In this document: positions 17,973 through 40,441 of the stretch, in pieces
Layout: every line of letters starts with the position of its first letter
Position numbering within the stretch: the stretch's first letter is position 1
Origin: Pedobacter cryophilus
GTDB lineage: Bacteria > Bacteroidota > Bacteroidia > Sphingobacteriales > Sphingobacteriaceae
DNA length: 64,000 bases
Reading direction: 5' to 3'
Assembly: GCF_005116455.1 (NCBI RefSeq)
Contig: NZ_SWBP01000003.1
Coordinates: 434,012-498,011 of the forward strand
The notes under the pieces: model-generated
Databases searched by the model: none
What the model saw: the letters and a program-made list of their open reading frames with translations, nothing else
Told to the model about the DNA's origin: nothing
Position numbers and translations under genes: made by a program

Positions 17973-18368
17973 ATGACACTAGTAGAAAAAACCACTGTAC
18001 CAGTTAGAAAAAGAATTCTTCTTGTTGATGATGAAATTGCCATACTTAAATTGTTAGAATTCATTCTAAAAAAAGATTATGAATTGGTGATAAAAGATAA
18101 TGGATTTGATGCCTTAACTTGGTTAGATAGCGGCAACATTCCTGATCTAATTATATCTGATATGGAGATGCCTTACTTTAATGGCGCCGATTTGGTAAGA
18201 TCTTTAAAAGTAAGTGGTTACTTTAGAGATGTGCCTGTTATTGTACTTTCTGGATCTGATTCTTTAGAAAACATTAAAACAAGAATTCCTTACCCAATTA
18301 ATGAATTAATGTCTAAACCTTTTAATCCAGGAATATTAAAGGAAAAAATAAAAATTATATTAAATTAG
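17973..18368 (+). CDS. Stand-alone response-regulator receiver protein (EPS locus)
   Basis: A 131-residue single REC domain without an output domain. All key residues are visible: the acidic pair in RILLVDDE, the phospho-acceptor Asp in LIISDMEMP, Ser/Thr in IVLSGSD, and Lys in MSKPFNP. It should therefore be phosphorylatable. No histidine kinase is encoded in the window. It is three bases upstream of the sugar transferase, whose N-terminus is itself receiver-like, so a physical partnership between the two is a reasonable inference. Confidence 0.92.
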   Translation: MTLVEKTTVPVRKRILLVDDEIAILKLLEFILKKDYELVIKDNGFDALTWLDSGNIPDLIISDMEMPYFNGADLVRSLKVSGYFRDVPVIVLSGSDSLENIKTRIPYPINELMSKPFNPGILKEKIKIILN

Positions 18369-18371
18369 CAA

Positions 18372-19454
18372 ATGCAATTTTCGAACGTTAACGTTTCTAA
18401 CAACTCTTTTAATGACGCTAAAATTAATGTTCTTTACTTTTCTGATCTTATAGAAACTGATCTTTTATCAGGTTTTGATAATTCGGAGTTCAATTTAAAA
18501 AAAGCCGATAGCATTTCTAATTTAAAGCTTTTAACCCAAAAGCTATCAATAAATGATTTAAGTACTATTATTTTATTAGAAGTAGACCCTTCTAAATTTT
18601 TGGAAATTCAGGAATTTATTCTCCTTCTAAAAAATAATTGGATTACTAAAAACTTAATCACTATTTTTCTTTTAACAGAAAAAAACCCTCCTATAGTAAA
18701 AAAAGCTTTAGAACTTGGTGTAAGTGATTGTTATACTTCACCCATTCCTTTTGAAGATGTAAAAGAAAGATTAAAATTCTTAACCTTTTATAAGGTTTTA
18801 CGTTCACAGGTTAATCAATTATCTCAGGTAACTCATGTAGAATATCATATCCCAGTTGGAAAAAGATTTTTAGACATTACGCTGTCTTCTTTGGCATTAA
18901 TTTGCATATCTCCTGTACTTCTTGTGGTAGCTGCTATTATTAAATTAGACTCTCCAGGACCCATTTTTTACACCAGTAAAAGAGTAGGAACCGGATATAA
19001 GATATTTAATTTTTACAAGTTTAGATCTATGAGAGTTGGAGCAGAAGCTGAGGTTGCCAGCCTTGCTCATAAAAACCAATATGGTAATTCAACCTTTTTT
19101 AAGGTTGAAAATGATCCAAGAATCACAAAGCTAGGCTCTTTTTTAAGAGGCACCAGTATAGATGAATTACCACAATTATTAAATGTTTTAAAAGGCGATA
19201 TGTCTTTAGTTGGCAACAGACCTTTACCGCTTTATGAAGCAGAACAGTTAACTACTAATGAATGGTCTATGCGTTTTTTAGGTCCGGCTGGTTTAACTGG
19301 CTTATGGCAAATAAGTAAAAGAGGTAAAAAAGATATGTCTGAAGTAGAAAGAAAAGAGTTAGATAACTTTTACGCTAAAAACTATTCTTTGTGGCTGGAT
19401 ATTAAAATTATCTTTAAAACTATTCCTGCTTTACTACAAAAAGAGAAAGTTTAA
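18372..19454 (+). CDS. Undecaprenyl-phosphate sugar-phosphate transferase with N-terminal pseudo-receiver domain
   Basis: Initiates EPS repeat-unit synthesis by moving a sugar phosphate onto undecaprenyl phosphate at the inner membrane. The C-terminal half (about 158-355) is a bacterial sugar transferase: GKRFLDITLSSLALI with a re-entrant hydrophobic helix, SPGPIFYTSKRVG, FYKFRSM, then SIDELPQLLNVLKGDMSLVG. Instead of the multi-span N-terminus of WcaJ/WbaP, residues about 17-140 look like a receiver domain that has lost its chemistry. The phospho-acceptor region reads IILLEVDP (Leu69/Glu70 where Asp is expected) and the conserved Lys is Ser123 (YTSPIPF). The family call for the C-terminus is firm; the pseudo-receiver reading is from pattern only. 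Confidence 0.88.
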   Translation: MQFSNVNVSNNSFNDAKINVLYFSDLIETDLLSGFDNSEFNLKKADSISNLKLLTQKLSINDLSTIILLEVDPSKFLEIQEFILLLKNNWITKNLITIFLLTEKNPPIVKKALELGVSDCYTSPIPFEDVKERLKFLTFYKVLRSQVNQLSQVTHVEYHIPVGKRFLDITLSSLALICISPVLLVVAAIIKLDSPGPIFYTSKRVGTGYKIFNFYKFRSMRVGAEAEVASLAHKNQYGNSTFFKVENDPRITKLGSFLRGTSIDELPQLLNVLKGDMSLVGNRPLPLYEAEQLTTNEWSMRFLGPAGLTGLWQISKRGKKDMSEVERKELDNFYAKNYSLWLDIKIIFKTIPALLQKEKV

Positions 19455-19750: not shown

Positions 19751-21874
19751 TTACTGTTTACAATCTATTTGTGATAAATTGATTCCATTATATATAATTT
19801 CAAACTCTGTTCTTCTATTCCTTTGCTGTTCTTCTTCAGAACATAAAACCCCGTCAATACAGTTGTTCACTAATTTACTCTTCCCGTAATACTCTACTAT
19901 CACCCTACTTTTCGAAATCCCTTTTGAAACTAAGTAAGCTTTAGCCGACTCACCTCTATTTAATGAGAGTGTTCTATTATAACTTTCAGAAGCTCTACTA
20001 TCACAATGACTACTGGTGAGTACTTTAAGATCAGGGTATTTCTTTAATAAGGCAGCCAATTTATCAAGAGCTTCAAAAGAGCTTGTTCTAATATAATACT
20101 CATCTAAATCATAATAAATATTTTCGGTTTTGAATACCCTTTTTAAAGAATCACAATTATTTAAAACATACTGTTGTATTTTATTGGCTTTTTTAAGACT
20201 TAATGTTACATATATGGTGGTATCTTTAGTTATTCCATCTGTCCCAATATATCTCCTATCGGGAAGATAATTTTTAAGTAAACCACTTAATTCAAAACCC
20301 GTGTTTTTGGGTAATTCTTTTTCAAACTCCCCATTAGCATCAACACTTAAACCCTCTAAATTTTCACCATTTCTTAATGAAACCGTAGCGTTAATTAATG
20401 GCGAACCTGTAGATCCGTCTACTACTTGACCTTTTAATATGATTTTAAATTGTTTCTTTTTAAAGGTATAAATATCATCACTACCTTTTCTATTTGAACT
20501 AAAATAACCAGATTCACCTTCGGTTACAGCAACTGCAAAATCATCAAAGGGAGAGTTTAACGGAGCACCTAAATTCAAAGGATTTCCAACTGGTTTTAAA
20601 TCATTTAATTCAATAGTAAAAACATCTAAACCTCCTAAACCAGCTAAACCATTTGATGAAAAATATAGTGTATCAAAATTATTTAAGTATGGGAATTCTT
20701 CATCACCTTCGGTATTAATTTTTCTTCCAAAATTAACCGGTCTACTCCATTCACTTTTATTAGACAACCTAATGCAATAATAAATATCTACTCCACCCAT
20801 TCCACCTGGCATATCTGAAGAGAAAATAAGAATTTTTCCGTCTTTACTTACCGTAGGATGTCCAACAGAATACTCATCATTATTATAATAAAAAGGTTTT
20901 ATTTTTCTAAGATCATATCCACTGGCTGTATAAAGTTTTAACTTAGTTACACCATCTCTACTTTGTGCTGATCTTGAATTAAAATAGTTGTTTCTGGTAA
21001 ACATGATAGAGCCATCTGGCAAAATTGTAGAAGACCCTTCGTGAAACTTGGTGTTAATTTTTCCTTTTAATTTCTCAACACCATTAAGCTCATCACTTGC
21101 AGAAATTGTTGCGTAAACTTTTGGATCATAAATACCCAATATCTTACTATCATTACTGGTTACAGGAGTGTTATCATCATTTAACTTGATGTTTTTCTTA
21201 CTTAGATTTAGCTTTTGCGATGAGGTATCGGCAGTATCTTCATCAGCAAACTTCAATTTTTTTCTATCCTTAATCACATACAAATCAGAAAAAGGTGTAT
21301 TATTCCAACCAAAAACATATTTAACTGGTTTAGAATCCTGTCTATTGCTTGTAAAAACTAATCCATCTTTATAAAGCATTGGGCTATATTCTGAAGCGGA
21401 AGTATTGATGCTCAAATATTTTATATCCCAACTTACTCCTTTACCTAATTTATCAAAATCTGCTTCAGAAAATAAAGCTGCTCTTCTATCTGAAGGAACC
21501 ATGCTTAAGTATTTTCTATACCATTGCTCTGATTTCTCATATTCTTTATTATTAGCTAAAGCCTCGGCATATCTTAAAGCCCAATCTGGTTTGGTGAAAC
21601 TTTGTTTACTCAATTTTTCATACCAACTTAATGCTTGCTTATATTGCTTTGTTAACCTATAACAATTAGCTATCATCTCCATAGCATCAATATTCTCTGG
21701 ATCTTTAGCTAAAATTGGCTTCAAATCTTCAATAGCTTGCGCAAACTTTAGGTTATTGTATGAAGTAACAGCAACGCCTAATTTCTTATCTGCATTTTGA
21801 TCTTGTGCCAATACTTGATGGTAAAACACCAGTAATAAAGTGCAAAGATATATGGATGTAAAAATCTTTTTCAT
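19751..21874 (-). CDS. OmpA family protein with TPR, WD40-like and regulatory-like domains (type IX secretion associated)
   Basis: An outer-membrane, peptidoglycan-linked protein of the PorE-like architecture. Order in 707 residues: signal peptide (MKKIFTSIYLCTLLLVFYHQVLA), TPR helices at about 25-125, PD40/WD40-like beta-propeller repeats at about 140-455 (ILIFSSDMPGGMGGVDIYY; LYFSSNGLAGLGGLDVF; SGYFSSNRKGSDDIYTF), a carboxypeptidase-regulatory-like domain (about 475-550), and a C-terminal OmpA domain with TSSHCDSRASESYNRTLSLN. It is last in the operon with PorP/SprF and the secreted adhesin, and probably supports their secretion or anchoring. Confidence 0.88.
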   Translation of the reverse strand: MKKIFTSIYLCTLLLVFYHQVLAQDQNADKKLGVAVTSYNNLKFAQAIEDLKPILAKDPENIDAMEMIANCYRLTKQYKQALSWYEKLSKQSFTKPDWALRYAEALANNKEYEKSEQWYRKYLSMVPSDRRAALFSEADFDKLGKGVSWDIKYLSINTSASEYSPMLYKDGLVFTSNRQDSKPVKYVFGWNNTPFSDLYVIKDRKKLKFADEDTADTSSQKLNLSKKNIKLNDDNTPVTSNDSKILGIYDPKVYATISASDELNGVEKLKGKINTKFHEGSSTILPDGSIMFTRNNYFNSRSAQSRDGVTKLKLYTASGYDLRKIKPFYYNNDEYSVGHPTVSKDGKILIFSSDMPGGMGGVDIYYCIRLSNKSEWSRPVNFGRKINTEGDEEFPYLNNFDTLYFSSNGLAGLGGLDVFTIELNDLKPVGNPLNLGAPLNSPFDDFAVAVTEGESGYFSSNRKGSDDIYTFKKKQFKIILKGQVVDGSTGSPLINATVSLRNGENLEGLSVDANGEFEKELPKNTGFELSGLLKNYLPDRRYIGTDGITKDTTIYVTLSLKKANKIQQYVLNNCDSLKRVFKTENIYYDLDEYYIRTSSFEALDKLAALLKKYPDLKVLTSSHCDSRASESYNRTLSLNRGESAKAYLVSKGISKSRVIVEYYGKSKLVNNCIDGVLCSEEEQQRNRRTEFEIIYNGINLSQIDCKQ

Positions 21875-21885
21875 AATGTGTATCC

Positions 21886-22824
21886 TTAAAAATATCTAGG
21901 AGAAACAACTTTGTTTTTCTCGAAACCAAACTCGTAACGCAACATAATCTCATGGCTGCCGCCATTAAAATTTCTAAGCTTGGTGGTACTGTGATCATAA
22001 GCATATCCAAATCTAATTTGAGGATTAACTTGAAGTTCTAACAATCCAGAAACATCTGCATTAGTTCTATACTGTGCTCCTAAACCAACAATTTCTTTTA
22101 TCCAAAAGGTAGCATTAATATCTCCTTCTATTGGCGCTCCTTTAACCGCTTTTAATAAAAAAGATGGTTTAAATTTAAAATCGGTATTTAAATCAAATAC
22201 ATATCCTGAACTCACAAACAAGTGCATTTCTTGTTTTGATGGATTGTTAGTTTGTGCGTTTGAACCTTTTGACAATCGGTTTGGTACAAGTGTAGGAACA
22301 GAAACTCCAAAATAGAATTTATCTGAGTTGTAATAAATACCAGTTCCAATATTAAACTGCATACTGTTTACATTTTCTTGAAAAGCAGGATCGTAAGATG
22401 TACCCGTTTCATCAAGTTCTACCGAGCTAAAATTGGCTTTAAAGTTTGCTATGCTTCCTTGCATACCAAATGATAGGGTTGCCTTTTCCATTCTTATTCT
22501 ATAAGCCGAACTTATAACAGCACCTGTTGTATTGGTGATTCCTAGTTTATCATTAAATACCTGCAAACCCAAGCCAATTTTGTTATTATTTATGGGTGCA
22601 TCAATGGTAAAGGTGGTGGTTTTTGGCGCACCATCTATACCAGACCATTGGTACCTGTATAAACCAGTAGCGGATATCACATTTCTACTTCCAGCATAAG
22701 CGGGATTTAAAGCCAAAGCATTGAACATGTATTGTGTGTACATAGCTTCTTGCTGAGCTTTAGATTCTTGAGAAGAAGAAATCAAGAATATTAATCCTAC
22801 AATTGAATAAATATATTTTTTCAT
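21886..22824 (-). CDS. PorP/SprF family type IX secretion membrane protein
   Basis: A 312-residue outer-membrane beta-barrel protein. After the signal peptide (ending ESKA) comes the family's diagnostic start EAMYTQYMFNALALNPAYAGS. Alternating beta-strand text and a terminal aromatic residue (SPRYF) follow. In Flavobacterium johnsoniae, SprF is needed to secrete its partner SprB, and PorP-like paralogues sit next to substrates with the gliding-type C-terminal signal. Here the substrate is directly upstream (five bases) and an OmpA protein directly downstream, the usual trio. Confidence 0.92.
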   Translation of the reverse strand: MKKYIYSIVGLIFLISSSQESKAQQEAMYTQYMFNALALNPAYAGSRNVISATGLYRYQWSGIDGAPKTTTFTIDAPINNNKIGLGLQVFNDKLGITNTTGAVISSAYRIRMEKATLSFGMQGSIANFKANFSSVELDETGTSYDPAFQENVNSMQFNIGTGIYYNSDKFYFGVSVPTLVPNRLSKGSNAQTNNPSKQEMHLFVSSGYVFDLNTDFKFKPSFLLKAVKGAPIEGDINATFWIKEIVGLGAQYRTNADVSGLLELQVNPQIRFGYAYDHSTTKLRNFNGGSHEIMLRYEFGFEKNKVVSPRYF

Positions 22825-22829
22825 GATTT

Positions 22830-25379: not shown

Positions 25380-25794
25380 AATGATTGCTTTAATATTCCA
25401 CAGTTGTTGAAGCTGCATTTCCCATTATCCAAATATCAATCCAGTTCAAATAATAAATTAACTAAGCGTGTTATTCATCCCTATAAGCACTCCAAACAAA
25501 CATATTTTTATTTTTAGTTGTATTTCTCAAATATTTTCTGATTTTAAATTAGCGAAATTATTTCCACAGTCAGGCAAATATTTCCTCAAATAAAATTTAA
25601 GAATACACATGCTTTAATTTTAATAATACTCACTAGAATTTAAATAAACATACCTTTATGATCTTCTAAACGGTATTTACAGCCCTTGAAACCTTTAGAA
25701 TTAGTTTCTGGCATAGAATTGCCTATAAGTGTTGAAAACTATTAGGTTTTATTTTTAATTAATTTGACATTTTAAAGTTTTAAGACATATTATA
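25380..25794. other. Divergent intergenic region between the T9SS and EPS export operons
   Basis: About 415 AT-rich bases with no gene. On the minus strand TATGTTTG (plus-strand CAAACATA, 25497-25504) fits a -7 element for the adhesin operon, with a leader of about 110 bases. No clear promoter was found for the plus-strand operon. Confidence 0.3.
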
Positions 25795-26478
25795 ATGAAC
25801 AAAATATTTAAATCGGTTTTACTGATTGCTTGTTTGAGTTTAAGCATGCAATTTGAAGCAAAAGCTCAGCAAACCATTATTCCTGATATTTCATATTTAT
25901 TTTTAGAAAAATTGATAGCGACTGCTAAACAAAATTATCCAAAAATTAAACAGTACGAAATAGCTAAAGAAATAGCAGAAATAAATATTAAAAGGGAAAA
26001 ACTAAATTGGCTCGACCCTATAGCAGTTTCTTATGTTTCGGTCCCAAATAAAACAATTAATTTTATTGACCCTCAATTTTTTTCAGGTTACCAGTTTGGG
26101 ATAAATGTTAATGTTGGAACATTTATGCAAAAACCTTTAAATATTAAGAAAACTAAAGCCGATTTAAGATTTATGGTTGAAGAATCTAAAGAATATGCTT
26201 TAAGCTTAGAAGCTGAGGTAAAAGTAAGATACTTCGCCTACATACAGCAACTAAATAATGTAAAACTATTTACATCATCTTTACAAGATGCTGAAGGATT
26301 ATTAAACGACCTTAAAGTAAGATATGAAAGAGGCGAAGTAACCTTTGGGATTTATAGCGAGGGTTTAATAAGTTTTAGTAACATTAGCAAATCAAAAATA
26401 GAGTCGGAAGCCGCTTTTCTTATCGCAAAAGCAAGATTAGAAGAACTCATCATCACAAAAATTGAAGATATAAAATAA
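25795..26478 (+). CDS. Short TolC-like outer-membrane protein of the EPS export operon
   Basis: 227 residues with a signal peptide ending MQFEAKA. The rest resembles one half of an outer-membrane efflux protein: ISYLFLEKLIATAKQNYPKI near the start, a beta segment with GYQFGINVNVGTFM, and a helix pair rich in coiled-coil residues (DLKVRYERGEVTFGIYSE). Full TolC proteins are about 430-480 residues, so it carries a single repeat. It overlaps the Wzc-like gene by one base. As no Wza homologue is present, it may form or support the outer-membrane exit for the polysaccharide; this is inference. Confidence 0.75.
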   Translation: MNKIFKSVLLIACLSLSMQFEAKAQQTIIPDISYLFLEKLIATAKQNYPKIKQYEIAKEIAEINIKREKLNWLDPIAVSYVSVPNKTINFIDPQFFSGYQFGINVNVGTFMQKPLNIKKTKADLRFMVEESKEYALSLEAEVKVRYFAYIQQLNNVKLFTSSLQDAEGLLNDLKVRYERGEVTFGIYSEGLISFSNISKSKIESEAAFLIAKARLEELIITKIEDIK

Positions 26479-28676
26479 TGGAAGAGTTAAAAAAGTTTTA
26501 TTATCTGTTGTACAGATTTAGATTAATAGTTATAGCAGTACCGCTAATTACAATTATTATTGCTTATTTTTTGGTAAGAAATCTTCCTGATGAATATATT
26601 GCTGAAGGACAAATTGCAACAGGTATTGTTGATGAGACTCAAAACTTAGTTTCTAATGTTGATAAACAAGAAGCTAGTATAAACAGAGAGTTTAGTAACC
26701 TGATTGAGATTATGAAACTTCAAAAAATAATTAATTTGGTTTCCTATCAATTAATTATTCATGATTTAACAACCGACAAACCGTTTAGAGAAATCAGTAC
26801 TAAAATCAAAGAACTTTCTGAAGTAGAAAGAAGAAAAGCATTAAATGCCTTTAAAAGAAAATACACTTATAAAGAGACCTTAAATCAGTTTAATGCCGAT
26901 GATAGAAATCTTTATGATTTATTAAGCTCTATGGGCTATAATCAAGATTTTATTGCTGGTAATATTTACACAGACAGATTAGAAATTAGTGATTTTATTT
27001 CGGTTAAATTCACATCAGAAAACCCAGAGTTATCTGCATTTGTAGTTAATTCACTTTGTTCTGAATTTATTAATTATTACACCAACATTTTAAGAGACAA
27101 TCAAAACAAATCAGTTAAGTTTTTATCAAATTTAGCCAAGGTTAAAAGTGACACCTTAAACAAACAAGTTGAAGCTTTAAGAAAGTACAAGATTGATAAT
27201 AAAATAGTGAATTTAGGTGAGCAGTCTAGAAAAATGTATGAGCTAACTGCTGAATATGAAACCAGAAAGCAAAATGCAGAAAAAGATATTATTTCATTAA
27301 AAGGAACAATTGATAATATTGACAAACAGTTTGACCCTTCTCAAAGGAAATATTTAGAGGCTTCGCTTGTTAAAGTAAATCAAGACATTACGCAATCAAA
27401 AAGAGAGCTTACCGCACTTAGCGAACTCCAAATTAGAAATGAATTTGATCCAAAATATAACAGATCAATAGATTCATTAAAACAGGTTATTAACGCTCAA
27501 ATACTAGATCAATCAGATAAATACATTACTAGCCCTTTAAGTAGAAAAGAAAGTTTGGTGACTCAAAAAATGAGTTTACAGGTTCAATATGACATTGCCC
27601 GTTACAGCCTTAACTCCTTAAAAAGAGAATTACAGGAAATGAACAATAAGTTTGAAAAACTTGTACCTCATGAAGCGGTAATACAATCATTAGAAAGAAA
27701 AATAGATATTGCAGGTAAAGAATACCTAGATATTTTAGATAAATATAATAATGTAAGCTTAGAAGCTAGTCTTTCAACCAAACTAAGACAGGTTCAAATT
27801 GCTATGCCAGGGGTACAACTTCCATCTAAAAAAATGCTCTTAATTATACTAAGCGGCATCATCAGCTTTATATTTTGTTTGTTGGTATTCTTTGTCATCT
27901 TCTATTTTGACAATAGAGTTGGAAGCCCTAGAGAGTTAGCTCAGATTACAGAAATACCTGTTTTAGGAAAAATAAACAGAGTAAACTCAGCTAATTTAGC
28001 CCTTAAAGAAATTTGGAGTAATTTACATGCAAACCCAGAAATGCAGGAACTTAAAAAACAATTACGTTCTGCTAGGTATGAGATAAGCCGAGAAATGGTG
28101 CCTACTAAAGATACCAAAGGCCAGGTATTAAATATTACGAGTATGAATGACTCTGAAGGTAAAACACTTTTAATTGCCTGTATAGCTTATTCTTATGTAG
28201 TAATTAGCAAAAAGGTTTTATTAATTGATGGTAACTTTGATCATCCAAGTATTACAGAAAACTCTAACACTAAATTTTTTATTGAAGATTATTTAAAAAG
28301 TGGAAATTTAGGTTCGGCCGAGTTTAATACTGGTATTATGGTGATGGGAAATAAAGGAGAAGACACCTCTTTGTTTGAAGTTGCCGATGAAAAAACCATT
28401 AAAGAAAGATTTGATTTATTACGCACTAAATTTGATATTATTTTGGTTGAAACCCCGTCTTTGGAAACTTTAGGAAAAGCCAAAGAATGGAATTTAATTG
28501 CCGATAAAGTAATGGGAGTTTTTGAAGCAAACCAGACTTTATCTGGAAGCAAAAAACAGCATATTAACTATTTAAAAGAGCTAAATGGGCAGTTTATTGG
28601 ATGGGTAATCAACAAAGTTTCTGTAGATTCGTACAACAAAACTGATGGTGCAATTAATACTAACTTCATTGAGTAA
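26478..28676 (+). CDS. Wzc/GumC-like polysaccharide co-polymerase with BY-kinase-like ATPase domain
   Basis: Inner-membrane protein controlling chain length and export of EPS. 732 residues: a Wzz-type domain with spans at about 17-34 and 454-475, a long periplasmic coiled-coil region between them, and a C-terminal cytoplasmic P-loop domain. That domain has NITSMNDSEGKTLLIAC (Walker A), VLLIDGNFDHP (Walker A') and FDIILVETPS, where the second Walker B acidic residue is Glu rather than Asp. The C-terminus lacks the tyrosine cluster of autokinases, so ATP-dependent autophosphorylation of the usual kind is doubtful. The next gene starts immediately after the stop codon. Confidence 0.88.
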   Translation: MEELKKFYYLLYRFRLIVIAVPLITIIIAYFLVRNLPDEYIAEGQIATGIVDETQNLVSNVDKQEASINREFSNLIEIMKLQKIINLVSYQLIIHDLTTDKPFREISTKIKELSEVERRKALNAFKRKYTYKETLNQFNADDRNLYDLLSSMGYNQDFIAGNIYTDRLEISDFISVKFTSENPELSAFVVNSLCSEFINYYTNILRDNQNKSVKFLSNLAKVKSDTLNKQVEALRKYKIDNKIVNLGEQSRKMYELTAEYETRKQNAEKDIISLKGTIDNIDKQFDPSQRKYLEASLVKVNQDITQSKRELTALSELQIRNEFDPKYNRSIDSLKQVINAQILDQSDKYITSPLSRKESLVTQKMSLQVQYDIARYSLNSLKRELQEMNNKFEKLVPHEAVIQSLERKIDIAGKEYLDILDKYNNVSLEASLSTKLRQVQIAMPGVQLPSKKMLLIILSGIISFIFCLLVFFVIFYFDNRVGSPRELAQITEIPVLGKINRVNSANLALKEIWSNLHANPEMQELKKQLRSARYEISREMVPTKDTKGQVLNITSMNDSEGKTLLIACIAYSYVVISKKVLLIDGNFDHPSITENSNTKFFIEDYLKSGNLGSAEFNTGIMVMGNKGEDTSLFEVADEKTIKERFDLLRTKFDIILVETPSLETLGKAKEWNLIADKVMGVFEANQTLSGSKKQHINYLKELNGQFIGWVINKVSVDSYNKTDGAINTNFIE

Positions 28677-29855
28677 ATGATTTTGAAATATCTTGAAATT
28701 ATTTGGTTTGCGATCCAAATCATCATTGGATTTCATCTTTTTTTTCCTTTGATTTTACTATTGATTAGTAAAATTTCTAAAAAGGAAGAATCATTAAATA
28801 ATTTTGAGCAAACAGACTTAGACTTTGCTGTAATTGTTACTGCTTATGAAGAAACAGATCATTTGCCAAAAGTAGTTGCTTCTATATTAAACCAAAGTCA
28901 TCAACAATTTTTAGTTTATGTAGTTGCTGATAAATGTGACATTACAAATTTATTTTTTGATGATGAACGAGTAATTTTGTTAAGACCAGAAACCATTATT
29001 GGGAGCAACACAGGTTCTCATCAATATGCAATTGATCATTTTAAAAGGGCACACAATTACGTTACCATTATTGATAGTGACAATATTCTTGATCAAGATT
29101 ATTTAAAGGAGTTGACCTATTCAATAAAGAATGAATTTGTAGCCGTTCAAGGTATTAGGGCTGCTAAAAATTTAAATAGCACTTATGCTTGTTTAGATGC
29201 CGCCAGAGATATTTATTATCATTTTTATGATGGCAAAATACTATTCAAAAGTGGCTCTTCTGCTACTTTAGCTGGTTCTGGTATGGCATTTAAAAGCGAT
29301 TTATATAGTTCATTTTTAAAACAAAATAAAGTAAGTGGCGCTGGTTTTGATAAAGTATTACAAGCTTGGTTACTTAACCAAAATTTAAGAATAGCATTTA
29401 ATGAGAAAGCTATTGTTTACGACGAAAAAACTACGCATTCAGATCAATTGGTAAAACAAAGATCTAGATGGTTAAATACCTGGTTTAAATACTTTAAATT
29501 TGGTTTTACCATCACCTTTAAAGGAATCAAAAACTTATCTGTTAACCAGTTATTATTTGGATTAGTTTTGTTAAGACCTCCCTTATTTATTTTTCTAATA
29601 TTGTCTGTTTTAGCTACATTCATCAATATAATTTTTGGCCTCAATTATTGGATTTGGTTAGCCGGTATAATTTGTTTTGTGGTGAGCTTTTTCTTGTCAT
29701 TAATTAACTCTAAAACAGATAAAAGAATTTATGCCTCATTAATTAATATCCCAAAATTTATTTTCTTTCAAATTTTATCCTTAACCAAGGTTAAACAAGC
29801 AAATAAAATATCGGTGGCAACAAAACACACACAAAATGGCAGCTTTAAAAACTAA
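28677..29855 (+). CDS. Membrane-associated family 2 glycosyltransferase
   Basis: 392 residues. An N-terminal hydrophobic helix is followed by a GT-A domain with FAVIVTAYEETDHLPKVVAS, the DSD metal site (VTIIDSDNILDQDY), a central acidic region and QRSRWLNTWFKY, an (Q/R)xxRW-type motif of processive or membrane-linked GT2 enzymes. Two or three membrane spans lie at about 290-370. It abuts the Wzc-like gene (no gap) and precedes the tiny membrane ORF. The transferred sugar cannot be told from sequence. Confidence 0.85.
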   Translation: MILKYLEIIWFAIQIIIGFHLFFPLILLLISKISKKEESLNNFEQTDLDFAVIVTAYEETDHLPKVVASILNQSHQQFLVYVVADKCDITNLFFDDERVILLRPETIIGSNTGSHQYAIDHFKRAHNYVTIIDSDNILDQDYLKELTYSIKNEFVAVQGIRAAKNLNSTYACLDAARDIYYHFYDGKILFKSGSSATLAGSGMAFKSDLYSSFLKQNKVSGAGFDKVLQAWLLNQNLRIAFNEKAIVYDEKTTHSDQLVKQRSRWLNTWFKYFKFGFTITFKGIKNLSVNQLLFGLVLLRPPLFIFLILSVLATFINIIFGLNYWIWLAGIICFVVSFFLSLINSKTDKRIYASLINIPKFIFFQILSLTKVKQANKISVATKHTQNGSFKN

Positions 29856-29861
29856 AAATAA

Positions 29862-29993
29862 ATGAGAATAAACCCTGATTTAAATGTTGGTAAAAGAAAA
29901 GCTCAAAATTTTTTACTTTTCAAAAAATGGTTAGCTATAGCCATCTGTTTTGTAACTACCTTTTTCTTTTTTTTAAAAATATTATTCTTCTAA
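29862..29993 (+). CDS. 43-residue single-span membrane protein of the EPS operon
   Basis: ATG 29862 to TAA 29993 encodes a basic N-terminus (MRINPDLNVGKRKAQNFLLF) and one very hydrophobic helix (residues 24-43, WLAIAICFVTTFFFF then LKILFF). It fills the otherwise empty gap between the GT2 gene (six bases upstream) and the polymerase gene (six bases downstream) in the same strand and spacing pattern. That supports it being real. It is a candidate small accessory subunit of the polymerase or co-polymerase. No family is recognised. Confidence 0.55.
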   Translation: MRINPDLNVGKRKAQNFLLFKKWLAIAICFVTTFFFFLKILFF

Positions 29994-29999
29994 AAGGTA

Positions 30000-31478
30000 A
30001 TGAGAAATATAAATTTTCAAATAAACAATAAAGGGAAGATTTTTTATATAGCTATTGCCGTTACGTTAATTTTAGTTTCTATTGTAGCTGCTTTTGTTAT
30101 AAAAATATACGGTTTAAAAGGCGGCGTAATGCCCGTTATTTTATCCTTTGGTTTACTTTTTGTTTATGCAGTATTAAGATTACCACGATTTGGCGTTTTG
30201 GCTTTACTGGTAATGGCCTACTTCATTATGTTTATTATTAGTATGGGTTTTACCGAATTCCCATTAGGCACAATAATGGATGGTATGCTTGCACTCTTGG
30301 TGATTGGTTTTTTTATCCAGCAAAAATATTATAAGAATTTTAAAGTATTTAAAAACCCTGTTGCTTATCTTATTTTAGTTTGGGTAGTTTATAATCTTAT
30401 ACAAGTTTTTAACCCTAATGCAGCCTCACAACTAGCTTGGGTATATACTATCAGAAGCGTTGCTGTAGTGATGCTCTCGTATTTTATATTTAGCTATTAT
30501 ATTATCTCCATAAAATTTATCAGAACTATTTTAATTGTTTGGTTATCACTTGCTTTTTTTGCTGCTTTATATGCAATTAAACAAGAATACATAGGCTTTT
30601 TCCCATTCGAAGAATGGAACCATTTTGATCCTCTCATACAATCTTTACTTTTTATTGATGGACACTGGCGTAAGAATTCTATTTTTTCAGATCCTGTGGC
30701 TTTTTCATACAACATGGTGGTATGTAGTATTCTTTGCTTAGCATTAATAACTGGTCCTTTTAGGTTAAGATTAAAAGTTTTTTTTGGATTTTTAATGTTG
30801 CTATTTTTAACCGTGATGCTTTACTCTGGCACTAGGGCAGCTTATGTGCTTTTACCCGCCGCTGGAATTCTATTTTTAGTTTTAAAACTTAACAAGTCTT
30901 TATTCTTTTTAGCAATAGTTGCCGGTTTATTCTTATTTGTGGTGATCAACATCCCTACAGGCAATGTCACTCTATACAGGTTTCAAAGTGCTTTTAAACC
31001 AAATAATGACGCTTCTTATAATGTAAGGAAAGCTAATCAGAAAAAAATTCAACCTTATATTCAAGCACATCCAATTGGCGGTGGCTTAGGAGCTACCGGA
31101 GTTTGGGGAGTAAGGTTTGCCCCCAACTCTTTTCTCGCAAAATTCCCTCCTGATAGTGGCTATTTAAGAGTAGGAATGGAATTGGGTTGGATAGGATTAT
31201 TTATCATTTGCAGCATTATGTTTACCGGCTTATACATGGGGATTAAGAATTATTTCAACATGAGAGATCCTGAACTTAAAACCTATTGTTTTGCCATGAT
31301 TTTAATTATATTCGCTATTGCAGTTGGTAATTTCCCACAAGAAGCTATAGTTCAATATCCTTTAAACATATTTTTTTATCTCTTTTTAGCTTTAATTCAA
31401 GTGACTAAAGTGTTAGACGATAAAAAATTTAAAGAAGAACAAGGCGTAACAGAGAAAAAAATAAAAGGACTTATATAA
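30000..31478 (+). CDS. O-antigen ligase/Wzy-like EPS polymerase
   Basis: 492 residues with about 11-12 membrane spans and one large periplasmic loop. The loop region has HWRKNSIFSDPVAFSYNM and, later, AHPIGGGLGATGVWG with a following DSGYLRVGMELGWIGL, text typical of the WaaL/Wzy polymerase-ligase superfamily. In this locus, with a flippase and a Wzc-like protein, polymerisation of repeat units is the likely role. It starts six bases after the small ORF and ends directly before the acetyltransferase start. Confidence 0.85.
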   Translation: MRNINFQINNKGKIFYIAIAVTLILVSIVAAFVIKIYGLKGGVMPVILSFGLLFVYAVLRLPRFGVLALLVMAYFIMFIISMGFTEFPLGTIMDGMLALLVIGFFIQQKYYKNFKVFKNPVAYLILVWVVYNLIQVFNPNAASQLAWVYTIRSVAVVMLSYFIFSYYIISIKFIRTILIVWLSLAFFAALYAIKQEYIGFFPFEEWNHFDPLIQSLLFIDGHWRKNSIFSDPVAFSYNMVVCSILCLALITGPFRLRLKVFFGFLMLLFLTVMLYSGTRAAYVLLPAAGILFLVLKLNKSLFFLAIVAGLFLFVVINIPTGNVTLYRFQSAFKPNNDASYNVRKANQKKIQPYIQAHPIGGGLGATGVWGVRFAPNSFLAKFPPDSGYLRVGMELGWIGLFIICSIMFTGLYMGIKNYFNMRDPELKTYCFAMILIIFAIAVGNFPQEAIVQYPLNIFFYLFLALIQVTKVLDDKKFKEEQGVTEKKIKGLI

Positions 31479-32096
31479 ATGTCTGTAACCAAAATCATAA
31501 AATCTAATCCAGTTTTAAAAAAACTTATTCACTGGATGATTATTCCATCAAATGATTTTAGACCTAGGTTATGGATAAGGTTATTTGTAAATCCAGTTAG
31601 AAATAAAATTGGTAAAAACACCATTATAAGATCTAGTACTAGAATGGATATTCTTCCATTTAATAAATTTGAGATTGGTTCTAAATCATTAATAGAAGAT
31701 TTTTCGACTATTAATAATGGTGTTGGAGATGTGAAAATTGGAAACAACACCATTATTGGCTTAAGTAATGTAATTATTGGTCCCGTTGTAATTGGTGATG
31801 GTGTGATGCTGGCTCAGCATATTGTAGTTTCGGGCTTAAATCATGGTTATGAAGCCATAGATATTTCGCCAAGTAAACAACCCGTGAGTACAAAACTAAT
31901 TACAATAGATGATGATGTTTGGATTGGTGCTAACGCAGTGATTACAGCCGGAGTACATATTGGAAAACATGCTGTAATTGGCGCAGGAAGCGTAGTTGTT
32001 AAAGATATTCCAGATTATAGTATAGCAGTAGGCAATCCGGCTAAAGTGATAAAAAAGTACAATTTTGAAAGTCAAAATTGGGAGAAAGTAATTTAA
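31479..32096 (+). CDS. Hexapeptide-repeat O-acetyltransferase
   Basis: 205 residues of left-handed beta-helix repeats: KIGNNTIIGLSNVIIGPVVI, then the acceptor loop with VVSGLNHGYEAIDIS (catalytic His in GLNHGY) and the C-terminal coil ITIDDDVWIGANAVITAGV and IGAGSVVVKDIPDYSIAVGNPAK. It belongs to the WcaF/maltose-acetyltransferase group that uses acetyl-CoA. It probably O-acetylates an EPS sugar. It directly follows the polymerase gene with no gap and precedes a glycosyltransferase by three bases. Confidence 0.9.
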   Translation: MSVTKIIKSNPVLKKLIHWMIIPSNDFRPRLWIRLFVNPVRNKIGKNTIIRSSTRMDILPFNKFEIGSKSLIEDFSTINNGVGDVKIGNNTIIGLSNVIIGPVVIGDGVMLAQHIVVSGLNHGYEAIDISPSKQPVSTKLITIDDDVWIGANAVITAGVHIGKHAVIGAGSVVVKDIPDYSIAVGNPAKVIKKYNFESQNWEKVI

Positions 32097-32099
32097 AAG

Positions 32100-33311
32100 A
32101 TGCTTAAAAATTCTGTCGTTTTTATTTTAAGTAATGCCAAATATGATGGTCTTTTTGAATCTACAAGTTTTACGGCTGCCAAACATTTAGCTAAATACAA
32201 TCAGGTATTTTATATAGAGTATCCTGCCACCTACAAAGATTATTTAAAGCACAAAAAAGATCCTGATTTTATAAAAAGAAAAAACTTTTTCTCTAAAAAA
32301 TCTAATGGTTTATTAGCCACAGACCAATCCAATTTACAAATACTCATCACTCCTCTCCTATTATCTATAAACTTTTTACCCGAAGGTTTTCTTTATAGAT
32401 TATTACTAAAATATAATGAAGCCTTAATTGCCAACAGAATAAAAAAAGTACTTAAAAAGTATAAGATTAAAGATTTTGTATTTGTTAACTCTTTTAACAT
32501 TTACTATCCAAATATTGGAAAATTAATTCCCTCAGCTCTTAATGTTTACCATTGTGTTGATCCATTAATTGTAGGTTTTGATAGAAGACATGGCATTGTA
32601 TCAGAACAAATAATTTTAAAAAATAGCGATTTGGTGATTTGTACCAGCAAGCAATTATTTGTAGAAAAGCAAAAACAGCATCCTCATACTTACTTTGTAC
32701 CCAATGCTGCCGATATTTCTCACAGCCAAAAAGTAAGACAAGCAGAAACTCAGGTTCATCCAAAATTAAAAGACATTAAAAAACCTATTATTGGTTATTT
32801 TGGAAACATAGAAAGGCGCATGGACTACAGCCTTTTAGAAGAACTTTTTAAAACCAATTTAGATAAAAACTTTGTTTTTGTTGGCCCCGTTACCGAAGAA
32901 TTTATTCCACCTCATTGGTATAAAACTGCAAATATTCATTTTATAGGAAGGGTACCATTTGCAGAAATGCCCTCTATTTTAAAAGGTTTTGATGTGGCTA
33001 TCATCCCATTTAAAAAAGATAAAGTAAGTGATACCATTTTTCCACTTAAACTATTTGAATATTTAGGTAGTGGAAAACCTGTGGTATCAACAAATTTTAA
33101 CGCTGATCTTAAAGATTTCACCCGTAACACGGTAAATTATTGTGCTGATGCTAAAGAGTTCTCCGAAGCAATAAATGATGCTTTAATGAATGACAATTTA
33201 GAAAAACAAAACGATAGAATTGCAGTAGCAGAAGAAAATACTTGGGAAAAGCGAATGAAAGAATTTTCTAATTTATTAGATCAATATTTAAAATTAAACA
33301 CTCATCAATAA
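32100..33311 (+). CDS. Glycosyltransferase, GT-B fold (GT4-like)
   Basis: 403 residues without membrane spans. The C-terminal GT1/GT4 domain is clear: KKPIIGYFGNIERRMDYSLL, FVFVGPV, IHFIGRVPFAEMPSILKGFD and the donor-binding acidic patch PFKKDKVSDTIFPLKLFEYL, then GSGKPVVSTNF. The N-terminal half (VVFILSNAKYDGLFESTSF; VYHCVDPLIVGFDRRHG) resembles TuaH/GumH-type enzymes. It probably adds one EPS sugar at the cytoplasmic face. The donor is unknown. Confidence 0.88.
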   Translation: MLKNSVVFILSNAKYDGLFESTSFTAAKHLAKYNQVFYIEYPATYKDYLKHKKDPDFIKRKNFFSKKSNGLLATDQSNLQILITPLLLSINFLPEGFLYRLLLKYNEALIANRIKKVLKKYKIKDFVFVNSFNIYYPNIGKLIPSALNVYHCVDPLIVGFDRRHGIVSEQIILKNSDLVICTSKQLFVEKQKQHPHTYFVPNAADISHSQKVRQAETQVHPKLKDIKKPIIGYFGNIERRMDYSLLEELFKTNLDKNFVFVGPVTEEFIPPHWYKTANIHFIGRVPFAEMPSILKGFDVAIIPFKKDKVSDTIFPLKLFEYLGSGKPVVSTNFNADLKDFTRNTVNYCADAKEFSEAINDALMNDNLEKQNDRIAVAEENTWEKRMKEFSNLLDQYLKLNTHQ

Positions 33312-33315
33312 AAAA

Positions 33316-34416
33316 ATGCTAAAAATATTTTTTGATCATCAAAAATTTAGTACCCAAAAATTTGGAGGTATTAGTAGGTATTTTGCAAATATTATTGAAG
33401 AAATAAAAAAGAATGATGACTTTGATTATTTACTTGGTGTTTTAAATTCTCCCAATCATTATATTAAAGATGAGCCTCAATTGCTTAACAATACTTTAGG
33501 CAATAGTTTATTAAACTCGGCTTCTGGCGCAAAAAGATATAAAGCCAATGAGTGGTATTGCGATTATTTACTCAAAAAAAACAACTACGATATTTTTCAC
33601 GCTACTTATTACGATCCTTATTTTATTAAGAATTTAAAAAAACCTTTAGTAACCACCATTCACGATATGACTTATGAGCGTTTACCCGAATATTTTTGGG
33701 TGAATGACCCATTAACCTATCAAAAGAGGATAAGTGTGGAAAGAGCTGATAAAATTATTGCCATATCAGAAACTACTAAAAAAGATTTACTGAAATATAT
33801 TGATACCGATGAAAGTAAAGTAGAAGTTATTTATCATGGAATTGATATTGAAACGCCCTTAAAATTTGATGAGGTAGCAAATTTACCTAAAGAATATTTA
33901 CTTTTTGTAGGTGATAGAAGTGGTTATAAAAATTTCTATTTATTCCTTAATACCTTTGAAAAACTGAATAAAAAATATCCGGATATTCATTTAGTATTAA
34001 CTGGAGGAGGCAAACTGGTTGGTGCTGATGTAGAAATTGTTAACAGGTTAAAAATAAAAGATAAAGTTCACCATTATAACGTGAGCGATGAACAATTGAA
34101 TTTTTTGTATAAAAACACCTTACTTTTTGTTTACCCTTCTTTGCATGAAGGGTTTGGATTACCCATTTTAGAAGCATTTAAGGCGCAGTGCCCTATGCTC
34201 TTGAGTGATACGGACTGTTTTAAAGAAATTGCACAAGATGCGGCTGAATTTTTTAGTCCTCATTCAGCAGATGACTTATATTCTAAAATAGAAAATTTAA
34301 TTTTAGATAAAAAACAGAGGGAGGTTTTAATTGCTAAAGGAAACTTAAGGCTTTTAGATTTTCCGATAGAAAAATCGGTAAAAGAAACTTTAGCAGTTTA
34401 TAGCGCATTAAAATAA
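33316..34416 (+). CDS. Glycosyltransferase family 4
   Basis: 366 residues, GT-B fold. The acceptor-side opening FDHQKFSTQKFGGISRYFANI and TTIHDMTYERLPEYF are typical of mannosyltransferase-like GT4 enzymes. The donor half has KEYLLFVGDRSGYKNFYLFL, HLVLTGGG and the signature YPSLHEGFGLPILEAFKAQC with the EX7E glutamates, then PMLLSDTDCFKEIA. It is the last gene of the plus-strand EPS operon and converges on the GT11 gene 24 bases away. No terminator hairpin was found in that gap. Confidence 0.92.
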   Translation: MLKIFFDHQKFSTQKFGGISRYFANIIEEIKKNDDFDYLLGVLNSPNHYIKDEPQLLNNTLGNSLLNSASGAKRYKANEWYCDYLLKKNNYDIFHATYYDPYFIKNLKKPLVTTIHDMTYERLPEYFWVNDPLTYQKRISVERADKIIAISETTKKDLLKYIDTDESKVEVIYHGIDIETPLKFDEVANLPKEYLLFVGDRSGYKNFYLFLNTFEKLNKKYPDIHLVLTGGGKLVGADVEIVNRLKIKDKVHHYNVSDEQLNFLYKNTLLFVYPSLHEGFGLPILEAFKAQCPMLLSDTDCFKEIAQDAAEFFSPHSADDLYSKIENLILDKKQREVLIAKGNLRLLDFPIEKSVKETLAVYSALK

Positions 34417-34440
34417 TGCTATTGTTTTAAAAAAGTCCAA

Positions 34441-35262
34441 TTAAGATTTTACATCACACCAAATAAACTTTTCGGTCATAATTCCCTTTGGATGTTCTCG
34501 ACCCAAATTGAAGCCGAACCAGTATTTTGGCGCATAAACTGTATTATTCTTAGGGCTTAAATAAGCTGCCCACCAAGCAAATGTACTATTAGAAATAATA
34601 CTGATATCGGCATTTTGGATAATTTGAAAATCAATGATTTCACTATTGTTCGAAAAAATATAATTAGGCTGTTGAGGAAAAACTTCTTTCACCTTTTCTA
34701 CGTCATCACTTACAAAAATTACTTTATAGCTGTCTAAGTCCTTTATATTAGCCAAACACTTTTTAAAATAATCCAATGGCAGAGAAATGTCTCTCTTTCT
34801 ACGTTCACCATAATTCATGTAATCTGTTCTACGTATATGTACCACTACAGTTTGATTCTCCTTAAAAAGTTGCCCGTATTTCGACTCAAAATCAAGTTTA
34901 AATTTATCTTTCAACTCAAAAGGAATTTTATGAGGAAGCTGTTCATAATAATACGCTGTTTGATAATACCCTTTATAATAAACCCAATTCTTTACATCAA
35001 CAGGTTTTGGAGCAACCCAGTTGTGAAAATTCAAATCCTTTAAACCTAAAATTGCGGGTATAATTCTGGTAATGGCAGAATAAACTTTAGATTCTAATAA
35101 GAAATTATCTAAACCTGGTAGTTTAAAGTACTTAGCTAAATAAGCATGATGAGGATTTGGAAAAAAATAAATTAATCCCTTTCTTCTTGTTTTTAGATAC
35201 TTTAAAAAAGTGTACTGAAAAAACTGATTCCCTAATCGTCCTTTAAACTCAACTCCTACCAT
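34441..35262 (-). CDS. Alpha-1,2-fucosyltransferase-like protein (GT11)
   Basis: Transfers L-fucose (or a related sugar) from the GDP form. 273 residues with the GT11 motifs: FKGRLGNQFFQYTFLKYL at the N-terminus, VVVHIRRTDYMNYG (the HxRRxD motif, H142 to D147), VIFVSDDVEKVKEVF, and SIISNSTFAWWAAYL. The presence of this enzyme suggests fucose in the polymer, but no GDP-fucose synthesis genes are in the window. It overlaps the flippase gene by one base and is last in that operon. Confidence 0.9.
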   Translation of the reverse strand: MVGVEFKGRLGNQFFQYTFLKYLKTRRKGLIYFFPNPHHAYLAKYFKLPGLDNFLLESKVYSAITRIIPAILGLKDLNFHNWVAPKPVDVKNWVYYKGYYQTAYYYEQLPHKIPFELKDKFKLDFESKYGQLFKENQTVVVHIRRTDYMNYGERRKRDISLPLDYFKKCLANIKDLDSYKVIFVSDDVEKVKEVFPQQPNYIFSNNSEIIDFQIIQNADISIISNSTFAWWAAYLSPKNNTVYAPKYWFGFNLGREHPKGIMTEKFIWCDVKS

Positions 35263-36623
35263 TATTCAGATTTTTTGTTTTTAAACTTAGCAAAAATGGG
35301 TTCAGCAAACTTTTTATACATTTCTGGATAGAAGTAATAAGCATAAATAAATGGGTTAATCACATTTACATTTAATTCTCTTTTCAAAATTACTTGAGCA
35401 ATAATAAAACCCACCACATTTGCTAATAAAGTAGCGTATGGAGCGCCAATCATTCCATAATTTTTAATAAAAACATAATTCATTACCAGATTAAAAACGG
35501 TAATAAAAATCACCATGTAAAAAGTAATTTTTGTTTTACCAATAGAATCTAAAATTGCACCAAATTGTCTTCCGTAAGGGAGTAAAACTATATATATTAA
35601 GGTTACTTTTAACATGGGGACTGCTTCAGGAAATTTACCATCAGCCAATATAAAAATCACAAAATCAGCAAAAAAATAAAGAAAAATAACACCAGGTAAA
35701 AGGATGGCTAAAATTGCGCCAACAGATCTTTCATACAAATACTTAATAGCATCTTTTCCTTCTGTTTCTATCCTTTTAGCACTTTGTGGAAAAACAATGG
35801 TAGCCATAGCATTGGTAGGTATATCAACCAAATTTATTATTCTTATTACTATATCATAAGCTCCGGCTGCTGCCGAATTAATGATACCACCTAACATCAT
35901 TTTATCAACCGTACCAGATAATATAGAACTAACCGATGTTCCAAAACTATATTTTGCATAATTAAAGAGCTTGGCTATCCATTCTTTAGAAATTTCTTTT
36001 GCGAAGTTTAAATAATCTTTAACAAAAAAATAAGCCACTACAGTACTGGTAATAACAGCAACAATTTGCACCAAAACTAAATTAATAAGCGGAAGTTCTA
36101 TTTTGAAAATATAACAATAGAAAATATACAAAAAGAAAATGGCTTGGTTTATAAAGCCTGTTAAAAATATTCCTTTAAAATTTAAATTTGCTTGTTCAAT
36201 ACAATTAAACTGTGTTAAAATTCCATTCACAATATATACTATGTTAAAAACATAAAATACGTTTTCAATTTCTGGATTATCCCATTCTTTTGCCAAATAA
36301 TGAGCTAATGATAAATTTAACAATACACAAAATAAGCTAATCAGAAGGTTTATTACCAAAGCAGCAGTAAGTATTTTTGGCTTATCCTGATCTGATGCAC
36401 TAGATAAAAACTTTATCAAGGCGTTTCTTATCATACCATCTCTTACTAAACTAAAAATAGTTGTGGTGGTTGTAAATAATATCCAAGTACCGTAGTGTTG
36501 TGGTGATAATATTCTCACTAAAAAAACAAATCCACCTACACCAAATAACACTCCAGACATATTTTGCAATATGTTAATGATCCCTGATTTTAACCAATAA
36601 TTGCTTTTAGCTTTCTCTTCCAT
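35262..36623 (-). CDS. Wzx-type oligosaccharide flippase
   Basis: A 453-residue MOP-superfamily membrane protein with about 12-14 spans (NILQNMSGVLFGVGGFVFLV at the start, LSPQHYGTWILFTTTT, FVKDYLNFAKEISKEW, then paired helices to the end). It moves lipid-linked repeat units across the inner membrane. The basic loop before the first helix and the repeated helix pairs fit Wzx. It overlaps both neighbours by one base, so translation is coupled within the minus-strand operon. Confidence 0.9.
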   Translation of the reverse strand: MEEKAKSNYWLKSGIINILQNMSGVLFGVGGFVFLVRILSPQHYGTWILFTTTTTIFSLVRDGMIRNALIKFLSSASDQDKPKILTAALVINLLISLFCVLLNLSLAHYLAKEWDNPEIENVFYVFNIVYIVNGILTQFNCIEQANLNFKGIFLTGFINQAIFFLYIFYCYIFKIELPLINLVLVQIVAVITSTVVAYFFVKDYLNFAKEISKEWIAKLFNYAKYSFGTSVSSILSGTVDKMMLGGIINSAAAGAYDIVIRIINLVDIPTNAMATIVFPQSAKRIETEGKDAIKYLYERSVGAILAILLPGVIFLYFFADFVIFILADGKFPEAVPMLKVTLIYIVLLPYGRQFGAILDSIGKTKITFYMVIFITVFNLVMNYVFIKNYGMIGAPYATLLANVVGFIIAQVILKRELNVNVINPFIYAYYFYPEMYKKFAEPIFAKFKNKKSE

Positions 36624-39553: not shown

Positions 39554-40102
39554 TTAGATTTCAAATATTACTTCAAAAATATTTTGATTTTGAGCTTCAT
39601 CAAAATGGTAATGAAAAGAATCAGAACATTGTCTGATAATTTTTAAACCAAAATGTTCGGGAATGTCAAATACAGATTCATAAACAACCTCTTCTTCCTT
39701 CAAAAATTCAACTTTACAATTGCTTTTTACTAATAAATGCAGTTCATAGTTATTACCTAATGAGGCTTTTATTTTTTCTATACTTCTAAAGTCGTTGATA
39801 GGGAAATCGTAATCTTTGTTGGTAATTGCATCTTTAAAATAAAACCTTTTCCCATAATCAATTTTTTTAATCACCAATTGCTGTTTTTCTTTTATCACAT
39901 GAATAAAAGAGGTGGTTTTACTGTGTTTCATGGCGTTGGTTAACAACTCCATAATCACCAATTTAAATTTAGCACTTTTTCTAAAATCGCTACTTATTTC
40001 CGGCACATCCTTAATAAAATCACAGCAGCTTTCTATAAACAATTTGTATTCGTTTATAAATAATGGGATTTCTAATGAAAGATGATTTGGTTTTAAAACC
40101 AT
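39554..40102 (-). CDS. RsbW-like anti-sigma/HATPase ATP-binding protein
   Basis: 182 residues with a GHKL ATPase fold. The N-box is VIMELLTNAMKHSKTTS (E52, N56), the G1-like box KKIDYGKRF, and the G2-like box PEHFGLKIIRQCSDSF, with an insertion of about 60 residues between them. In partner-switching systems such a protein phosphorylates a STAS antagonist and binds either it or a target. It overlaps the STAS gene by one base, which fixes the pairing. Bacteroidota are not known to have sigma-B, so the target may be an EPS enzyme or another regulator (inference). Confidence 0.82.
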   Translation of the reverse strand: MVLKPNHLSLEIPLFINEYKLFIESCCDFIKDVPEISSDFRKSAKFKLVIMELLTNAMKHSKTTSFIHVIKEKQQLVIKKIDYGKRFYFKDAITNKDYDFPINDFRSIEKIKASLGNNYELHLLVKSNCKVEFLKEEEVVYESVFDIPEHFGLKIIRQCSDSFHYHFDEAQNQNIFEVIFEI

Positions 40103-40440
40103 TATTTTAGGTTTATAAGAGCGTCTTCAACGCTATCATATATTTTAAAAACTTTATCTAAGCGGGTTAATTCAAAAAGTGCTAAAACATCATCTTGAAT
40201 ATTTACCAAACCCATTTCGCCATTTTTAGACAATACATGCTTTAACCCTGCAACCAACGCACCAATAAAAGAGCTATCCATGTATTTAATATTGCTCATG
40301 TCTATCACCAATTTTGGTTCAGAGGCTGAGCTGTTATCATATATGAAATTCTTAAATTCTTCTGACTGATTTAAACCGGCCTCACTAAGATTAACCGTTA
40401 TTAGCGTTGCATTGTCTAAAACCTGTTTTTTATAATTCAT
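40102..40440 (-). CDS. STAS domain anti-sigma factor antagonist (RsbV-like)
   Basis: 112 residues forming one STAS domain. The phosphorylation loop is IKYMDSSFIGALVAGLKHVL, with D55 followed by S56/S57, one of which is the expected phosphoserine. The ending LALFELTRLDKVFKIYDSVEDA is typical of SpoIIAA/RsbV proteins. It lies between the phosphatase (gap of one base) and the ATP-binding protein (one-base overlap), so all three are made together. Confidence 0.9.
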   Translation of the reverse strand: MNYKKQVLDNATLITVNLSEAGLNQSEEFKNFIYDNSSASEPKLVIDMSNIKYMDSSFIGALVAGLKHVLSKNGEMGLVNIQDDVLALFELTRLDKVFKIYDSVEDALINLK

Positions 40441-40441
40441 A

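Follow-up and report, generated by a model that had tools for sequence, protein, structure and literature searches.

A stand-alone single-domain response regulator and a phosphoglycosyl transferase (PGT) are encoded in tandem within the window, the 64,000-nucleotide stretch of Pedobacter cryophilus DNA analysed here, and both genes lie on the plus strand together with all of the features described within them. The first gene (17973..18368) specifies a receiver protein (REC) of 131 residues that matches PF00072 over residues 15-126 (4.4e-18). The second (18372..19454) specifies a 360-residue protein that its reading frame, Pfam and AlphaFold2 delineate as a fusion of a pseudo-receiver with a PGT. 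The REC frame ends in TAG, and the ATG of the PGT follows three bases downstream. By alignment the REC retains D19/D20, the phospho-acceptor Asp63 (18159..18161), S93 and the conserved Lys115 (18315..18317); the upstream gene is a receiver with acceptor Asp, Ser/Thr and Lys in place.

The C-terminal part of the fusion is a monotopic PGT catalytic domain (18861..19436), in which PF02397 (8.2e-62) covers residues 164-355 and profile positions 1-178 of 179, and by this conserved domain the protein belongs to the monotopic PGTs. Its Asp264-Glu265 pair (19161..19166), which we take from the PGT literature to be the catalytic dyad, is D and E in 103/103 distinct copies. Asn282 (19215..19217) belongs to the subfamily signature SLVGNRPLPLYEAE, which is replaced by G[PA]RP in two other PGTs with which it was aligned (L029 and L030). 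The subfamily was defined as PGT frames with GNRP, and because copies were picked by this motif the invariance of Asn282 is by construction. When the window PGT was compared with 10 NCBIfam models, it scored below the cut-off of all of them. A side observation concerns the catalytic domains of some subfamily members (L024, L025, L027, L040, L042, L044, L052, L056, L059 and L152), in which four cysteines (CxxC...C...C) occur within an additional segment, about 50-60 residues long, that separates the NQY motif from F[VF]K..DPR; the insert is a possible metal site, and the window PGT does not have it.

The N-terminal domain (N-domain) of the PGT is a degenerate receiver. A Pfam search with residues 1-157 alone gave zero matches. 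The AlphaFold2 model of the domain (pLDDT 89.5, pTM 0.82) consists of five strands alternating with five helices, and together with Foldseek, VIA and hhalign it places the pseudo-receiver at residues 17-154 (18420..18833), with a long last helix (127-154) that leads into the transferase. PleD, CpaE and PhoB head the Foldseek list for this model, and VIA-align superimposes it on the 3dgf receiver over 118 residues (Z 17.3, rmsd 1.9). Family comparison by hhalign, with 31 N-domain sequences (the window's plus 30 from the 33 named-genome homologues, namely those with the domain) on one side and 33 partner receivers on the other, gave a probability of 99.4% (E 4.9e-22, 124 columns). A profile of the N-domains, searched against PDB sequences, found PleD chains first (3.6e-20) and other receivers next. 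PF00072 itself is matched at E up to 1 by 17/31 N-domains (best 2.4e-11), the window's not among them. The alternative that the domain is a shrunken form of the DUF of large PGTs was rejected, as hhalign gave 1.9% against the 160-residue stretches, chosen by position, that precede the catalytic domain in 29 other PGTs, versus 99.4% against REC.

Degeneracy of the receiver is evident at its functional positions. In the window N-domain the acceptor Asp is replaced by Glu70 (18579..18581), the conserved Lys by Ser123 (18738..18740), and the acidic pair is gone; these losses, despite the REC fold, identify a pseudo-receiver. T102 and D119 still resemble receiver residues, D119 being retained in 79/86 aligned N-domains. 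In a sample of the window's own family, the acceptor position holds Glu in 105/107 N-domains and the Lys position holds Lys in 0/107, while among 86 distinct aligned N-domains from Bacteroidota loci Glu occupies the acceptor position in 47 and Asp in 12. Some remote members (e.g. L024, L052) remain receiver-like and have Asp, which fits an origin from a working receiver. An earlier note, made from the letters of this DNA, had proposed most of this architecture: an intact receiver three bases upstream, an intact PGT domain, and in front of it about 140 residues of receiver-like character with the acceptor missing and Ser123 in place of Lys. Each of these points agrees with what was found, and the structure prediction by which the note would have had its proposal judged, a fold other than REC speaking against it, returned a REC fold.

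The partner RECs are mostly intact and largely form one REC clade. PF00072 is matched by 33/33 aligned partner RECs, including that of the window. The acceptor Asp is present in 86/93 distinct adjacent RECs and in 102/107 partner RECs of the family sample (six loci of which are shared with the 93-REC set), the Lys in 92/93 and 107/107, respectively, and the Ser/Thr in 93/93 adjacent RECs. In a tree of 141 receivers the partner label changes 7 times, versus 40 when labels are shuffled, and the best branch (support 70) unites 72/93 partner RECs with 4 others; of these four, L028 and L159 are likewise partner RECs. Within the P. cryophilus genome, the partner-REC profile gives 159.8 bits for the window REC, its best match; the runner-up among the 54 REC matches reaches 114.5. 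The seven adjacent RECs without the acceptor Asp (L022, L035, L036, L062, L139, L147, L154) imply that phosphorylation cannot be the rule everywhere. Among these seven loci, only L147 has an Asp at the acceptor place of its N-domain, and there the Lys is absent.

Linkage of a REC to the pseudo-receiver-PGT is close to a rule in this Bacteroidota subfamily and no local oddity. A REC was counted as adjacent when it lay on the same strand and ended no more than about 450 bp before the PGT frame, or overlapped it, with limits that varied slightly between sets. Among 205 distinct subfamily copies collected, 195 have an adjacent REC (194 scored by script, plus L026), and the two frames often overlap or sit within 25 bp of each other. 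The REC is adjacent in 189/191 copies with the pseudo-receiver versus 6/14 copies without it; consistently, 8 of the 10 copies that lack an adjacent REC also lack the pseudo-receiver. The earlier note would have counted regular absence of the receiver gene among homologues against its proposal; such regular absence did not occur.

The component surveys give the same picture. In the first 60 relatives' genomes a REC lies directly upstream at 28/28 loci (L001-L028), where L028, cut by a contig end, is counted only among these 28, and where L008 (late ATG) and L026 (broken frame, with the REC 5 bp ahead of its first part) were scored as N-domain copies with an adjacent REC. The best 80 matches in a collection of species genomes comprise 33 subfamily loci and 47 other PGTs. 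All 33 are from Bacteroidota, among them Pedobacter, Mucilaginibacter, Hymenobacter, Dyadobacter, Flavobacterium, Chitinophaga, Roseivirga, a Prevotella MAG and others, and in 32/33 a REC lies upstream at no more than 100 bp. Only Roseivirga L058 departs from this: it is without the N-domain, and a degenerate REC lies 2.5 kb upstream of its PGT. As a control, a REC within 400 bp was found at 1/47 of the other PGTs among these matches and an adjacent REC at 0/20 other-PGT loci from genomes of the window's own class. The single control case, L109 from a Clostridium MAG, is flanked on either side by REC genes less than 250 bp away. In the window's own family the gene occurs in 239/399 genomes. 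At 108 loci fetched from these carriers, which represent the high-scoring end (E up to 1e-85), with N-domain presence read from match ranges and six loci repeated from earlier sets, the REC is adjacent in 107, or in 101/102 of the newly seen copies. The family exception, L212, has the N-domain and no REC in the 5.9 kb upstream.

An even sampling of 395 Bacteroidota genomes (matches at E up to 1e-75) found the subfamily in 45 of them, with 48 copies, all of which were examined. The REC is adjacent in 35/36 copies with the N-domain versus 4/12 without it (Fisher p 1.1e-5, uncorrected for descent), after L126, whose N-domain is encoded ahead of the start codon chosen for its frame, was assigned by hand to the copies with the domain; the script alone gave 35/35 versus 4/13. 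Four of the 8 non-adjacent copies without the N-domain (L144, L146, L149, L153) have a same-strand REC 2.2-2.5 kb upstream, so that co-loss is incomplete, and another, L152, has a divergent REC 230 bp away. N-domain presence changes just 4 times on the tree, and a descent-aware comparison of co-loss therefore offers few independent pairs: 1 on supported branches and 4 on all branches.

These data bear on two other readings of the pair. One, which we consider unlikely, is that the pseudo-receiver has no more than a structural or homodimerising function and that the co-transcribed REC acts elsewhere in the exopolysaccharide (EPS) machinery or on another target. Two N-domain copies without an adjacent REC (L126 and L212) are compatible with it, as is the poor conservation of the domain, whose mean column identity over the phylum is 23%, whereas the marked difference in REC adjacency between copies with and without the domain speaks against it. 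So do L057, L144 and L159, which are without the N-domain yet sit, by eye, in a similar EPS cluster. At L152, L155 and L156, also copies without the N-domain, nucleotide-sugar genes follow the PGT, and pathway differences could thus also explain the contrast in REC linkage. The other reading has the REC act directly on the catalytic domain and membrane part, as modelled for the Myxococcus xanthus pair EpsW/EpsZ, with the pseudo-receiver dispensable. The six distinct copies that pair an adjacent REC with a PGT without the N-domain (L057, L059, L136, L145, L148, L150) can be cited for it, and three of the six have a hybrid kinase upstream; moreover, the EpsZ-EpsW model (PMC12802240) has EpsW touching both the DUF and the catalytic domain. 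An adjacent REC is far more regular in copies with the N-domain, and we regard direct action that bypasses this domain as rather improbable.

The preferred reading, in which the REC contacts the pseudo-receiver, was examined by covariation and by co-folding. Mean-field DCA between REC and N-domain (194 paired rows, Neff about 101) gave no signal above a within-clade shuffle: among 25 such shuffles the best pair was reached by 15, the top-10 mean by 11 and the top-50 mean by 2. The best inter-protein pairs are scattered, and several fall in the catalytic domain. This non-significant covariation counts in favour of a purely structural role of the pseudo-receiver. A read-through co-fold, in which the REC stop was read as Gln to give a single chain, reached pLDDT 84.7 and pTM 0.56 from a flawed alignment, in which the N-domain of 21 PGT-only rows was misaligned to the REC part and 6 rows remained for the pseudo-receiver. 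VIA aligns PleD over both receivers (258 residues, Z 20.5) of this model, itself subject to the same alignment flaw, with an rmsd of 13.7; thus the tandem order matches that of PleD and the geometry, as modelled from this alignment, differs. The earlier note had suggested that the receiver dimerises with the pseudo-receiver and so switches the first committed step of EPS synthesis. Its pseudo-receiver, intact partner and EPS setting hold, and the contact between the two, for which covariation did not exceed the shuffle, is inferred.

The EPS setting is provided by assembly genes at 25795..36623, for an outer-membrane OEP protein, a PCP/Wzc-like protein, glycosyltransferases, a Wzy_C polymerase/ligase and a Wzx-like flippase. 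Pfam identifies these apart from the protein encoded at 26478-28676, which we take to be the PCP and which has no match above cut-off. An OEP-like gene directly follows the PGT in L016, L019 and L159. In the window, OmpA-like, PorP/SprF-like and large surface-protein genes (19751-25418, minus strand; by eye) separate the PGT from the OEP gene, and may have been inserted into this locus at a later time. Near the EPS genes, at 39554-41566 on the minus strand, are a receiver-SpoIIE phosphatase, a STAS protein and a small protein that has no Pfam match and is HATPase-like by eye; the trio is a possible partner switch, and relatives of all three genes in Mucilaginibacter L040 are located downstream of the PGT, at a distance of about 4-5.5 kb.

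Candidate signal sources vary among genomes. No kinase lies beside the REC-PGT pair in the window. At six loci the REC is preceded by a same-strand hybrid kinase, with 17 to about 360 bp between the two: L038 (Bacteroidales MAG), L043 (Hymenobacter) and L061 (Rufibacter), or 3/33 loci with long flanks, and L145, L148 and L150, or 3/18 in a further locus set. HisKA, HATPase and REC domains are present in all four of the kinases checked by Pfam (L038, L043, L061, L148), and Hpt in three. In L158 (4271-8904, minus strand) the PGT has the N-domain and no adjacent REC, and in front of it lie genes for an H-NOX protein, an HNOBA-PAS kinase, a FIST protein and another kinase; FIST proteins are also encoded divergently beside REC-PGT in L159 (1984-3093, minus strand) and L057.

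A further reading makes the pseudo-receiver a binding site for a small molecule, for instance c-di-GMP. Degenerate receivers can serve as ligand sites, as the pseudo-receiver of Caulobacter ShkA does (PMC7010744), and the N-domain resembles ShkA in being a receiver without phosphotransfer that has turned into a regulatory input. The likeness ends with the input and the output, which in ShkA are c-di-GMP and a kinase. GGDEF matches were found in 6/46 carrier genomes searched; the other 40, that of P. cryophilus included, have none, and this bears on c-di-GMP rather than on other ligands. We therefore rejected c-di-GMP input as the main reading, since it is unlikely in most carriers examined, and hold ligand binding in general to be very improbable. 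By the same count, EPS switching in the carriers is left unexplained by c-di-GMP.

The REC and PGT can be compared with two better known arrangements. In a recent report on M. xanthus (PMC12802240, mBio 2025), the single-domain response regulator EpsW stimulates the PGT EpsZ in a heterologous host and acts on it after translation, models place EpsW on a 2:2 complex, and EpsZ is a large monoPGT with a transmembrane bundle and a cytoplasmic DUF. As there, a single-domain response regulator is here paired, by adjacency, with the monotopic PGT that initiates an EPS pathway. Unlike EpsZ, which has the transmembrane bundle and a DUF without a beta-hairpin, the window PGT has a pseudo-receiver in that place, and unlike the myxobacterial case the pair consists of neighbouring genes and belongs to Bacteroidota. 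The second arrangement is PleD, which comprises a receiver D1, an adaptor receiver D2 and GGDEF (PMC8999164), and which is active as a dimer with D1 phosphorylated. The order of a phosphorylatable receiver, a degenerate receiver and an enzyme is the same here. In contrast to PleD, which is one protein and a cyclase, the Pedobacter system consists of two proteins in which the D1 equivalent is separate and the output is a PGT.

A REC-PGT fusion as such is not new, because small monoPGTs can carry receiver domains according to the discussion in PMC12802240, which cites the network study of O'Toole (2021, PNAS) and through which these fusions are known to us. They place a REC-type domain on a PGT, as here, and may include the GNRP subfamily. 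Our literature search, which covered titles and abstract openings in PubMed Central and left most subscription journals outside, returned no paper on the pair in Bacteroidota.

On the observed fold, degeneracy, catalytic residues, partner and linkage, we propose, with a probability of roughly 0.58, that REC and the pseudo-receiver-PGT together act as a single two-component output unit in EPS synthesis. A histidine kinase would phosphorylate Asp63 of the REC; this might be the hybrid kinase that some genomes encode next to the pair, and an unlinked kinase in P. cryophilus. Phospho-REC would then dock on the pseudo-receiver, which may serve as the fixed, non-phosphorylatable half of a receiver dimer, in a split version of the PleD REC1-REC2 stem. 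Docking could order or dimerise the membrane-bound PGT via the long helix 127-154, and the docked PGT would begin to transfer sugar-1-phosphate onto undecaprenyl phosphate, which is the first committed step. Such a switch is made plausible by the EpsW/EpsZ precedent (PMC12802240). Put more broadly, and as a tentative proposal that we rate at somewhat below even odds, the first step of a conserved EPS pathway in Bacteroidota may be gated by a split PleD-like switch, in which phosphorylated REC docks on the pseudo-receiver (Glu-locked in the window's own family) of the PGT, coupling diverse kinases (hybrid kinases, and one H-NOX/FIST/kinase cluster) to initiation without a transcription factor or c-di-GMP. 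If this is true, a receiver/pseudo-receiver pair on the initiating enzyme constitutes a direct post-translational EPS switch, and the EpsW/EpsZ finding of 2025, made in myxobacteria, is extended to a further phylum and a different PGT architecture. The interface would in that case be testable with two small soluble proteins.

One further feature of the window lies outside the EPS region. At 54405-57624 on the plus strand, two overlapping open reading frames (433 and 641 residues) appear by eye to be halves of one metal-efflux RND pump, and, judged likewise by eye, reflect a frame break or an assembly error.
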